A model generated the notes under the pieces. That model was not told where the DNA came from, did no database searches, and saw only the letters and a program-made list of their open reading frames with translations. From NCBI GenBank assembly GCA_021773115.1, contig JAJFKS010000032.1, positions 1 through 64,000 on the forward strand: a stretch of 64,000 nucleotides of DNA, written 5' to 3'. This DNA comes from Woeseiaceae bacterium. Its GTDB lineage: Bacteria; Pseudomonadota; Gammaproteobacteria; Steroidobacterales; Woeseiaceae. Made by a program: the position numbers and the translations under genes. This document shows positions 1 to 49,640 of the stretch, piece by piece (positions within the stretch are counted from its first letter, which is position 1; each line of letters opens with the position of its first letter).

Positions 1-108
1 GTTGTCGAACTGATTGCACCGATTGCAATGGAAGACGGTCTGCGCTTCGCGATTCGCGAAGGCGGTCGTACCGTTGGCGCCGGTGTCGTCGCTAAGGTTA
101 TCGAGTAA
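1..108 (+). CDS. tuf: Elongation factor Tu, C-terminal fragment
   Basis: The reading frame is open from base 1 and ends at TAA 106-108, giving the last 35 residues of EF-Tu. The tail contains [20 protein letters not shown], the conserved end of beta-barrel domain III. EF-Tu is the GTPase that delivers aminoacyl-tRNA to the ribosome. The gene is cut by the window edge, so its start and GTPase domain are not visible. It lies directly upstream of rpsJ, the usual str/S10 junction in gammaproteobacteria, with a REP palindrome in the 40-bp gap. Confidence 0.95.
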
Positions 109-110
109 CC

Positions 111-134
111 GTAGGAGCGGCCACCAGGCCGCGA
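111..134 (+). repeat. REP palindrome between tuf and rpsJ
   Basis: A GTAGGAG head is followed by a 6-bp stem GCGGCC/GGCCGC (117-122/127-132) with loop ACCA. GTAG-headed palindromes of this kind are typical REP elements of gammaproteobacteria. rpsJ keeps its own weak GGGA Shine-Dalgarno further downstream, near 138-141. Confidence 0.85.
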
Positions 135-148
135 ATGGGAAAACAATT

Positions 149-460
149 ATGAGTAATCAAAACATCAGAATCCGCCTGAAGGCCTTCGATCATCGTTTGA
201 TCGACAATTCAGCCCGCGAGATCGTTGATACCGCCAAGCGCACAGGCGCTACGGTCAAGGGTCCGATTCCGCTGCCCATGAGAAAAGAACGCTTCACGAT
301 TCTTATCTCTCCGCACGTGAACAAGGATGCTCGGGATCAGTACGAGATTCGGACTCACAAACGTTTGATGGATATCGTGGATCCTACCGACAAGACAGTT
401 GATGCTTTGATGAAGCTTGAGCTGCCTGCTGGTGTGGATGTTCAAATTAAGCTTAACTAG
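149..460 (+). CDS. rpsJ: 30S ribosomal protein S10
   Basis: Small-subunit protein S10 of the 30S head, also known as the transcription antitermination factor NusE. The 103 residues match the family length. The sequence opens with [18 protein letters not shown] and carries the S10 signature around [25 protein letters not shown]. The ATG at 149 was chosen because it gives the standard N-terminus; upstream codons in this frame run back into the REP. It is the first gene of the S10 block, but unusually it is separated from rplC by 641 bp containing a promoter and two hairpin repeats. Confidence 0.97.
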
Positions 461-487
461 TTCGGCGTTCTAATCACGATCGGCCCG

Positions 488-559
488 CGGCCGACATATG
501 TATGACTGGGAATGGCTCCCTTCGGTCCGCTTTATTTCCCGTCACACATATCTCGGCCA
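488..559 (-). repeat. Conserved-loop hairpin element, copy A
   Basis: Arms 489-506 and 541-558 pair over 18 positions with two mismatches. They enclose a 34-nt loop whose 31-nt core (509-539) is the exact reverse complement of the core of copy B. Read on the - strand the core begins GGAAATAAAGCGGACCG and ends GAGCCATTCC. The arm sequence is unrelated to those of copies B and C. This is not a family I recognise. Confidence 0.8.
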
Positions 560-625
560 CGCGCCTGACAATTAGCTTGTCGCACTGTTCGCCAAGATCT
601 TGAGCAGGATTCCGACGCTATTGGG

Positions 626-697
626 CGGTCTGGAAAGACCTGTCAGGAAATAAAGCGGACCGAAGGGAGCCATTCCTAGACAGGTCTTTCCAGACCG
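626..697 (+). repeat. Conserved-loop hairpin element, copy B
   Basis: The 19-bp arms CGGTCTGGAAAGACCTGTC (626-644) and its exact complement (679-697) surround a 34-nt loop. The 31-nt core 646-676 is identical to copy A (inverted) and matches copy C at 30 of 31 positions. There is no T-run after the right arm, so it is not a standard intrinsic terminator. Confidence 0.85.
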
Positions 698-779
698 ACC
701 ACGGACTGTCAGCCTAAGCCATTGATTCTAATGGCACGAAGCGCCCCAGAAAATAGTTAGAAAAAACCCAGCATCCCGC

Positions 780-807
780 TTGTAATAAGACCTAGGAGTC
801 GTATAAT
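780..807 (+). promoter_or_regulatory. Promoter candidate for rplC and the downstream operon
   Basis: A consensus -10 TATAAT (802-807) sits 16 bp after TTGTAA (780-785). It is followed by the GC-rich stretch TGCGGGCTCG, like the discriminators of stringently controlled ribosomal promoters. Start of transcription would be near 814, leaving a leader of about 290 nt. The motif is seen; its use is inferred. Confidence 0.6.
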
Positions 808-1101
808 TGCGGGCTCGCTGAATTGGCCGGACCGGGAGTCGGCCAATAGCAGGACAGCAGAATACCAGTCGCCAGGAAACCGAGGGTGACACGGCAAATC
901 CCGGAACTGCCGAACCGGCTGTATGACCGGATCGGAGCTTGGGTCAGCCCCAGAGCAAAGAGGACAAAGTCCTCGTAGCAATGGCTGGCCCTTTCGCATG
1001 TCTGGCTTATTAAACAGTGGTCGCCAATCGAAGTGGCCACAGTGAATATTTAAATTTTGAGATTGTCACCGACCAAACGAAGTCGGTGCGAGGTTTTGAA
1101 A

Positions 1102-1746
1102 ATGACAATGGGTCTTGTTGGCCGCAAATGCGGTATGACACGTGTCTTTACGGATGAGGGAGTTTCAATTCCAGTCACCGTAATTGAGGCACAAGCAAAC
1201 CGAATCACCCAGGTGAAAACGGTGGAGAGCGATGGCTATCGTGCGCTGCAAGTTGCAGCCGGCAGCCGTAAAGCCTCACATGTGAGTAAGCCTGAAGCTG
1301 GCCACTTTGCGAAAGCAAAGGTTGAAGCTGGCGACCTAATGATGGAGTTGCGACTGGAAGACGCCGATACGGGCGAATTCGAGGCAGGTAACGAGCTCAA
1401 GGTTGACCTCTTTGAGGCGGGCCAGAAAGTCGACGTCATTGGTACGACGATTGGTAAAGGCTTTGCCGGTGCTATTAAGCGCTGGAACTTCAGTATGCAG
1501 GACGCGACGCACGGCAACTCGCTGGCGCATCGTGCTCCCGGCTCCATTGGTCAGAACCAGACGCCGGGTCGCGTTTTCAAGGGTAAGAAAATGTCCGGCC
1601 ATATGGGTAATGTTCGCCGAACCGTACAGAATCTTGAAGTTGTACGTGTCGACGCTGAACGCAACCTGCTTTTGATCAAGGGCGCTGTCCCGGGTCATCG
1701 CGGCGGCAAGGTTTTTGTTCGTCCCGCTATTAAGTCCAAGAAGTAG
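1102..1746 (+). CDS. rplC: 50S ribosomal protein L3
   Basis: Early-assembly large-subunit protein whose loop reaches the peptidyl-transferase centre. 214 residues. The N-terminus [20 protein letters not shown] and the L3 signature around [20 protein letters not shown] are clear, with the [20 protein letters not shown] loop typical of the family. The start at ATG 1102 follows GAGG at about 1090 and gives the canonical N-terminus; upstream in-frame codons belong to the leader. It is followed by rplD after 11 bp. L3 is probably the first product of the 780-807 promoter. Confidence 0.97.
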
Positions 1747-1757
1747 AGGGCGAGCCG

Positions 1758-2360
1758 ATGAAATTGAAACTTAAGGACAAGGGTTCCGTTGACGTTGCAG
1801 AAGCAGCGTTCGGCGCAAAATTTAACGAAGCGTTGATCCACCAGGTTGTTACGGCATACCAGGCGGGCAGTCGCGCCGGTACCAAGGCACAGAAAAACCG
1901 TTCCGCAGTACGTGGTGGTGGTGCCAAGCCCTGGAACCAGAAGGGCACTGGCCGTGCTCGTGCGGGGACGATTCGTAGCCCGATCTGGGTGGGTGGTGGA
2001 CGCACGTTTGCTGCGAAGCCGCGCAACTTTGATCAAAAAGTGAACAAGAAAATGTATCGGGCAGCGTTGCGCTCGATGCTGTCGGAGCTTATTCGTCAGG
2101 ACCGCCTGGTTATCGTCAATGACCTCGCGATCGATGCACCGAAGACCAGGCTCTTGGCGACCAAGCTTAAAGAATATGAACTGAACAACGTACTGATCCT
2201 GAACGAAGCGTTCGACGAGAAGTTGTTCCTGGCTGCTCGTAATTTGCCGAATGTCGGCATTTGCGATGTTGCGGCGATGGACCCGGTTGTTCTGATTCGT
2301 TTCGACAAGGTCCTGGTGACATTGCCAGCGTTGAAGCTGATTGAGGAGCGCCTGTCATGA
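1758..2360 (+). CDS. rplD: 50S ribosomal protein L4
   Basis: L4 lines the peptide exit tunnel. In E. coli it also represses its own operon by binding the S10 leader. 200 residues. The tunnel loop is present as [20 protein letters not shown] near residues 55-75. The start codon follows a GAGG Shine-Dalgarno. Its stop overlaps the rplW start (ATGA). If L4 autoregulation exists here, the target would have to be the leader ahead of rplC or the one ahead of rpsJ; this is inference only. Confidence 0.97.
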
Positions 2361-2665
2361 GTCGAGCCCTGCATCAGGAAAGATTAATGACGGTTATTCA
2401 AGGCCCGCACCTGTCCGAAAAGGCGCATATTGCGGCGGAGAAAAACCAGGTCGTACTGAAGGTCCGTACCGACGCGACGAAAAAAGAGGTGGCGCAAGCA
2501 GTCGAGCTGCTCTTCGAAGTCAAAGTCGACAACGTTCAGGTTGTGAATGTTAAGGGCAAGACCAAGCGTTTCCAGCAAACGAAGGGTCGTCGTCCGGACT
2601 GGAAAAAAGCTTACGTAAGGCTCGCCGATGGAACCTCCATCGAAGAGCTCTTCGGTCCAGAATAG
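2357..2665 (+). CDS. rplW: 50S ribosomal protein L23
   Basis: L23 sits at the tunnel exit and docks trigger factor and SRP. 102 residues, of family length, with the signature [18 protein letters not shown] and the C-terminal [19 protein letters not shown]. The ATG overlaps the rplD stop by four bases (ATGA), so translation is likely coupled. The N-terminus is about five residues longer than that of E. coli L23; the second Met, at residue 11, lies inside the conserved first helix, so the upstream start is preferred. Confidence 0.96.
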
Positions 2666-2675
2666 GGGAACGGTA

Positions 2676-3506
2676 GTGTCACTGCATAAAGCCAAACCGA
2701 CATCACCAGGGCGACGTTTTGTCGTCGCGGTAAAGACGCCCGATTTGCACAAAGGCAAGCCGCACGCTGCGCTTCTCGAGAAGAAGGCAAAGAACGGCGG
2801 TCGCAATAACAACGGGCGAATTACCGTTCGCCACCAGGGCGGTGGTCACAAGCAACATTACCGTGTCATCGATTTCAAACGTGACAAGGATGGTATTGCG
2901 GGCGTTGTTGAACGACTTGAATACGATCCGAACCGTAGTGCGCACATTGCACTGGTCAAGTACACCGATGGTGAGCGTCGTTATATTCTGGCACCGAAAG
3001 GCGTCAGTGCCGGCACGCCGCTTATCAGTGGTGAAGATGCACCGATCAAGCCGGGCAATGCCCTGCCGATTCGTGCGATTCCGGTTGGTACGACGGTACA
3101 CAATATTGAAATGAAGCCTGGTAAGGGTGGTCAACTGATTCGTTCAGCTGGCGGATCCGCGCAGCTCGCGGCTCGTGACGGTGCGTACGCCACGATTCGT
3201 TTACGCTCGGGTGAGACTCGCAAAATTCACATCGATTGTCGCGCAACGATTGGCGAGGTCGGTCACGGCGAGCACAACCTCCGAAAACTCGGAAAGGCTG
3301 GCGCGAAGCGCTGGAGAGGTGTTCGCCCGACAGTTCGCGGTGTTGCGATGAACCCGGTCGACCATCCGCACGGTGGTGGTGAGGGTCGTACATCTGGCGG
3401 ACGTCACCCGGTTAGCCCGTGGGGCACACCGACCAAGGGTGCGAAGACTCGTGCAAACAAACGTACCGACGGCATGATTGTTCGCCGTCGCAAGAAGCGC
3501 AAGTAG
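2676..3506 (+). CDS. rplB: 50S ribosomal protein L2
   Basis: L2 is a primary 23S rRNA-binding protein needed for subunit association and peptidyl transfer. 276 residues. Conserved stretches include [19 protein letters not shown] and the C-terminal [20 protein letters not shown], which holds the essential His. The GTG at 2676 was chosen because it lies 7 nt after GGGG and directly precedes the conserved [13 protein letters not shown]; the frame is open further upstream but only inside rplW. The TAG stop (3504-3506) is part of the GTAG head of the REP at 3503. Confidence 0.96.
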
Positions 3507-49501: not shown

Positions 49502-49526
49502 AACCTGGTACCAAGACAGGAGAGCG

Positions 49527-49599
49527 CCGGGCGAGAAACTGTTTAGAGGAAATAAAGCGGACCGCAGGGAGCCATTCCGATAAACAGTTTCTCGCCCGG
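49527..49599 (+). repeat. Conserved-loop hairpin element, copy C
   Basis: 19-bp arms CCGGGCGAGAAACTGTTTA (49527-49545) and its perfect complement (49581-49599) around a 35-nt loop. The core 49548-49578 differs from copies A and B at one of 31 positions (C for A at core position 18). It lies between two converging genes, a terminator-like position, but has no T-run. Confidence 0.85.
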
Positions 49600-49640
49600 T
49601 GATCCTGTGAAAATCGTCAACTCACGGCGAAACTCTTGCT

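Follow-up and report, generated by a model that had tools for sequence, protein, structure and literature searches.

Small dispersed hairpins, apparently non-coding, form a family with a conserved tip and a variable but paired stem in Woeseia-like Gammaproteobacteria

What kind of element keeps the tip of its hairpin constant and leaves the sequence of its stem free? This question is raised by a locus of a Woeseiaceae bacterium, where two hairpins, A and B, lie in mirror-image orientation between the genes of the ribosomal proteins S10 and L3. To our knowledge, the known bacterial palindromic repeats keep either their stem or a tag. We analyzed the complete 64,000-nucleotide stretch of DNA carrying this locus (hereafter, the window) together with related copies in other genomes. 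The window contains the following features; for hairpins and tips, the strand given is the one carrying the core.

149–460, plus strand: rpsJ (S10), upstream neighbour of the pair A/B (gene call)
488–559, minus strand: hairpin A (fold, inverted core, covariance-model match at 486–561, minus strand, 70 bits)
509–539, minus strand: conserved tip of A, 31 nt (sequence match)
626–697, plus strand: hairpin B (fold, core, covariance-model match at 624–699, plus strand, 77 bits)
646–676, plus strand: conserved tip of B, 31 nt (sequence match)
802–807, plus strand: TATAAT downstream of A/B, resembling a promoter for the rplC unit (by eye)
1102–1746, plus strand: rplC (L3), downstream neighbour of the pair (gene call)
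49525–49602, plus strand: third hairpin, a single one in the gap between convergent genes (covariance-model match at 49526–49600, plus strand, 85.5 bits)

The 31-nt core is indeed identical and inverted between A and B, on different stems, as the original prediction had it. The arm length of 18–19 bp given there holds for B, whose stem runs unbroken for 19 bp and continues after a bulge with 5 bp, but not for A, whose stem is broken up by G.G and G.T mismatches. The third hairpin has a stem of about 21 bp and a core (49548–49578) with one mismatch to that of A and B, and the arms differ among all three copies. No match to the 31-nt core is expected in the window by chance (100 shuffles), and the DNA folding z scores of A, B and the third copy were −4.8, −8.7 and −7.4, with none of 200 shuffles folding as well in each case. 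Elsewhere in the same genome we found one further inverted pair (contig C6), of which one partner has a 21-nt insert in its tip. A 21-nt stretch with a small palindrome of its own was seen within some tips (L013, 1577–1597; L184, 717–737; L175, 112–132); it occupies two different positions and occurs in either orientation.

The pair had been placed inside the S10 block; more precisely, it is flanked by rpsJ and by the TATAAT-led rplC leader. It likely separates two transcription units, rpsJ and rplC, since rplC is preceded by the TATAAT and a long leader with motifs that recur at rplC loci; among 30 rplC loci from the genus, 27 carry the one and 28 the other of two such motifs. This long conserved leader (802–1101) gave no meaningful Rfam match, and it may represent a ribosomal-protein leader shifted to the rplC side of rpsJ.

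Next, we considered the stems of 194 instances. As these had been gathered by a tip pattern that tolerated three substitutions, the invariance of the tip is partly built in. Across this set the loop is conserved and the stem free, in line with the claim made for A and B, and nearly all core copies are bordered by complementary arms. At least 14 of 24 arm positions were complementary in 190/194 instances, at least 20 in 154/194 and all 24 in 40/194. Random places reached the first two levels in 16/970 and 4/970 cases, and arms taken from different instances in 216/2000 and 20/2000. Fewer than 14 paired positions were found in four instances (L023, L053, L171 and L175). The median stem measures 27 bp, and stems of about 22–28 bp are typical. 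In a 36-row alignment picked for good pairing, the stem covariation score was 0.867 vs 0.188 after shuffling; as 34 of these rows were chosen out of 61 candidates for at least 20/24 pairs, the percentage of paired positions is biased upward. The stems thus differ among copies yet covary. Stems as unrelated as originally described are found between A and B, but not family-wide: counted from the core, stem positions 4, 5, 6 and 8 have T in the 5' arm and A in the 3' arm in 66–78% of 142 non-redundant copies.

The tip itself, conserved over 24–31 nt, shows the strong consensus AATAAAGCG-SASC-GNA-GSG-AGCCAT, or in a fuller reading G-G-R-A-A-T-A-A-A-G-C-G-S-A-S-C-G-N-A-G-S-G-A-G-C-C-A-Y-C-C. The closing stem at its foot is GGAA/TTCC and leads to an asymmetric internal loop rich in A (AATAAA); above this lie two invariant G-C pairs, mismatches of the G.A type, a further two pairs that covary, and a GNA triloop. 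The foot alternates between GGA/TCC and GGG/CCC, and a covarying pair sets apart two tip types, GACC..GG and CAGC..GC. Such a conserved tip on a free stem fits the suggestion that a conserved factor recognises the loop. Two candidates were rejected because of the CAGC tip type: it has no CsrA-type GGA loops (by eye), and PriA/n'-pas primosome sites contain AAGCGG, which is not general here, as this type has AAGCGC.

To follow single sites through evolution, we fetched rpsJ-rplC loci by the RplC protein and thus independently of the tip pattern, loci without a tip being left out of the comparison. Tips were 0.946 identical for B (6 loci) and 0.898 for A (9 loci), with values of 0.49–0.73 for the arms, and most stems were paired at 16–20 of 20 positions; the stem of L191 was paired at 12/20, owing to a one-base shift. 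The element is present in the rpsJ-rplC gap of 13/27 species, one of them counted by eye with a long tip insert, and the pair is absent in 14/27 (count partly by eye). In some species A stands alone, decayed copies of A were found at L186 and L189, and the species without the pair are too divergent for the ends of the element to be placed. The same sites recur between species, namely rpsJ-rplC, a site behind hemE and one by hisI. Some copies are therefore old and persist vertically at fixed sites, and this persistence, together with the decay, would require no present mobility. At L194, the tip of A carries a long insert (about 75 nt, by eye) and the stem is still paired. Besides that, a CTAAGTCATTGATT-like stretch was seen by eye in the window (about 717–740) and at L185, L188, L203 and L207; it lies beside the hairpins and, in species that lack them, has the other orientation.

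These comparisons bear on how the hairpins came about. The original prediction had considered the insertion of the 31-nt core into pre-existing hairpins, which is not supported: same-genome copies share stem and flank as well, and the rpsJ-rplC stems are passed down across species, changing in pairs. A related proposal, that each copy obtained its own perfect arms when it inserted and the host DNA beside it was copied by snap-back, could account for arms that are nearly perfect yet different, with 24/24 pairs in 40 of the 194 instances. We regard it as quite improbable, as copies of the same genome share part of their arms and flanks, and species differences in orthologous stems affect both arms.

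The inverted cores of A and B had also been taken to give a transcript an either/or fold, and an RNA switch or terminator controlling rpsJ-rplC could exploit the 31 complementary bases. For the pair in the window, the RNA fold with the A-B duplex reached −111.9 kcal/mol and that with local hairpins alone −105.3, a gain for the duplex of just 6.6 kcal/mol. This gain is modest compared with how fast local hairpins fold, and the many single copies lack a partner to pair with. Switching is therefore not what the family does in general; the local hairpins, which would form first, are the likelier state. Moreover, no U tract follows either hairpin, the pair is missing from about half of the species compared, with A alone in some, and farther downstream rplC is served by a leader and a promoter-like site of its own. 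Control by such a switch or terminator is highly improbable.

We further asked which strand is subject to selection. Scoring every mismatch equally, we counted on the core strand of 142 non-redundant copies 128 G.T vs 27 A.C stem mismatches, and 207 purine-purine vs 13 pyrimidine-pyrimidine ones. Per copy, 68 leaned to G.T and 10 to A.C, with 64 tied (p = 1e-11). Equal G.T and A.C counts would be expected if the double strand were selected; the one-sided counts mean that the core strand folds alone, and selection appears from these tallies to act on it as a single strand in its folded form. However, they are expected for RNA as well as for single-stranded DNA.

The core strand may accordingly act as RNA: each hairpin would be a small structured RNA or an element of a UTR, and a conserved RNA-binding protein or RNase would bind its tip. 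Covariation, tip conservation and the one-strand G.T surplus are as for a structured RNA, the copies at the rpsJ-rplC, hemE and hisI sites have persisted for long, and 67/127 classifiable copies sit in gaps between convergent genes. Orientation tells against it: relative to co-directional genes the core strand is at chance (26 same, 23 opposite), inverted pairs between convergent genes are common in both arrangements (11 −/+ and 6 +/−), and A is antisense to rpsJ at the S10 site. In addition, no Rfam match was obtained for window positions 1–3000 up to an E value of 5. By a crude ORF call, which also served for the gene calls, 28/184 copies overlap an ORF. Overall, we consider an RNA function possible but somewhat unlikely. 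As the orientation of the core is independent of the neighbouring genes, we lean towards single-stranded DNA, so that the core strand would act as DNA and its tip would probably be read in this form by a putative protein.

Within genomes, the copies behave like small dispersed units. The 194 instances include 44 inverted pairs within 180 nt, 35 of the −/+ type with a spacing of 90–174 nt and nine of the +/− type with 114–154 nt. Identical 31-nt tips occur in 14/44 pairs vs 4.9 when partners are shuffled over all genomes; loop homogenisation within pairs was discarded after a within-genome shuffle (12/33 identical observed, 12.2 expected). In five genomes, copies of one genome have units of roughly 120–480 nt in common, surrounded by unique flanks, as in mobile miniature elements. 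These units measure about 260 nt in one subfamily of G005 and 330–480 nt in another, about 240 nt in G038, 320–480 nt in G524, 130–370 nt in G561 (besides one 682-nt match) and 120–160 nt in G116. Beside the copies, only genes of shared orthologous sites recur, and no transposase was among the 30 largest protein clusters. In G005, a 375-aa ORF (L043, 1583–2710) lies between two hairpins 1570 nt apart, and it gave no Pfam match.

How far does the family extend? A tip-pattern scan of bacterial and archaeal genome contigs returned at least 118 stretches, and the matches listed were labelled as Woeseiaceae, Woeseia, or unclassified Gammaproteobacteria or Proteobacteria, with one Rhodospirillales bin that matches G038, a genome of the same order as that of the window. 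In a covariance-model search of this order, 70/296 genomes and 14/68 genera were positive (own genome counted); copies were counted up to a ceiling of 16 in each genome. Matches were found in 6/369 genomes of the class (two of the own or the same genus, G116, and three with weak single matches) and in 4/398 of the phylum (own genome included, two weak); the weak matches were left out of the family count. L231 (G067) looks by eye like a distant relative. The sole strong match outside the order is G116, from another gammaproteobacterial family, with eight hits, and none of six other genomes of that family matched. Its tips keep the AATAAAGCG and GAGCCAT sides and have a longer top, mostly ending in GAA. 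Six of its copies are single hairpins without a partner, in which a 28-bp stem is almost always paired and the middle of the stem varies by copy. Viral contigs contained no exact tip match, and a phage or plasmid origin was rejected, as phages and plasmids gave chance-level matches only (E 2 to 10). A literature search of limited reach found no description of the family.

Among known systems, REP/BIME elements come close: they are likewise short, dispersed, extragenic, often inverted dimers and often between convergent genes, and both include heterodimers with different stems (PMC3733652). REPs are tagged with GTAG or CGTC, and their stems measure 5–13 bp and their loops 2–20 nt (PMC3733652); here, we find no tag at a fixed distance, stems of about 22–28 bp and a conserved tip of 24–31 nt. 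REPINs are similarly small, non-autonomous units of two inverted repeats and a spacer, but their REP ends are conserved and RAYT-linked (PMC3116915), whereas the present hairpins show conservation in the tip and not in the stem and have no linked RAYT. In TnpA-REP recognition, a folded single strand with mismatches and a loop is read strand-specifically, as we propose here; what decides in that system is GTAG together with irregularities of the stem, and the loop in E. coli is free (PMC8266576), while here the tip is fixed.

Could a RAYT (Y1) transposase then be moving the hairpins as ordinary REPs with a GTAG or CGTC tag? They share the habit of REPs, being short extragenic hairpins dispersed through genomes, often as inverted dimers and in convergent-gene gaps, and Y1_Tnp was found in 8/10 genomes of one set and 7/12 of another. 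However, at fixed distances of 28–90 nt from the core, no column on either side exceeded 0.15 bit (142 copies), and no GTAG or CGTC tag was found at a fixed distance at the stem foot. The stems are also far longer than in REPs. Seven carriers gave no Y1_Tnp hit (G034, G012, G004, G010, G011, G025 and G116); some of these genomes are incomplete, and G116, with its eight hits, is given as 100% complete. No tip lay alongside any of 16 Y1 loci, one of which has a GTAGGAGCGG repeat instead. This explanation is improbable, and an enzyme moving the hairpins would presumably not be a Y1 transposase. The window also harbors GTAGGAGCGGC repeats within ribosomal operons (at 111, 3503, 7151, 9419, 10108 and 12031; nine matches with at most one mismatch in the window vs 0.79 expected), which are probably the ordinary GTAG REP family of this genome.

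In integron attC sites, the terminal part is variable and the integrase reads the base of the stem. Here, conservation lies in just this terminal part, which speaks against attC. A likeness to attC is the use of one strand as a hairpin (the strand reading being proposed here) with little conservation of stem sequence (PMC2727003).

The best explanation, to which we give an even chance, is a REP/BIME-like mobile hairpin family with reversed conservation, in which the tip is fixed, the stem is free and the core is read as a folded single strand. The hairpins would spread within genomes as single hairpins or inverted pairs, presumably driven by an enzyme. The working part would be the tip of one strand, recognised in its folded form by a candidate protein, and the long stem would need only to pair, so that its sequence could drift with compensating changes. 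A further-reaching and rather doubtful version is that of a new class of mobile single-strand hairpins, present in one order and one distant gammaproteobacterial family, with a free stem, the tip as address and a mover that is neither Y1/RAYT nor an integron integrase; the address would be the structured tip with its AATAAA internal loop, tandem G.A and GNA triloop.

A stem of 22–28 bp that is free in sequence but paired is a natural record of compensating change, and the type of its mismatches reveals which strand folds. The combination of a fixed tip and a free stem points to a candidate protein reading a folded single strand, and the small size of the tip makes it usable as bait.
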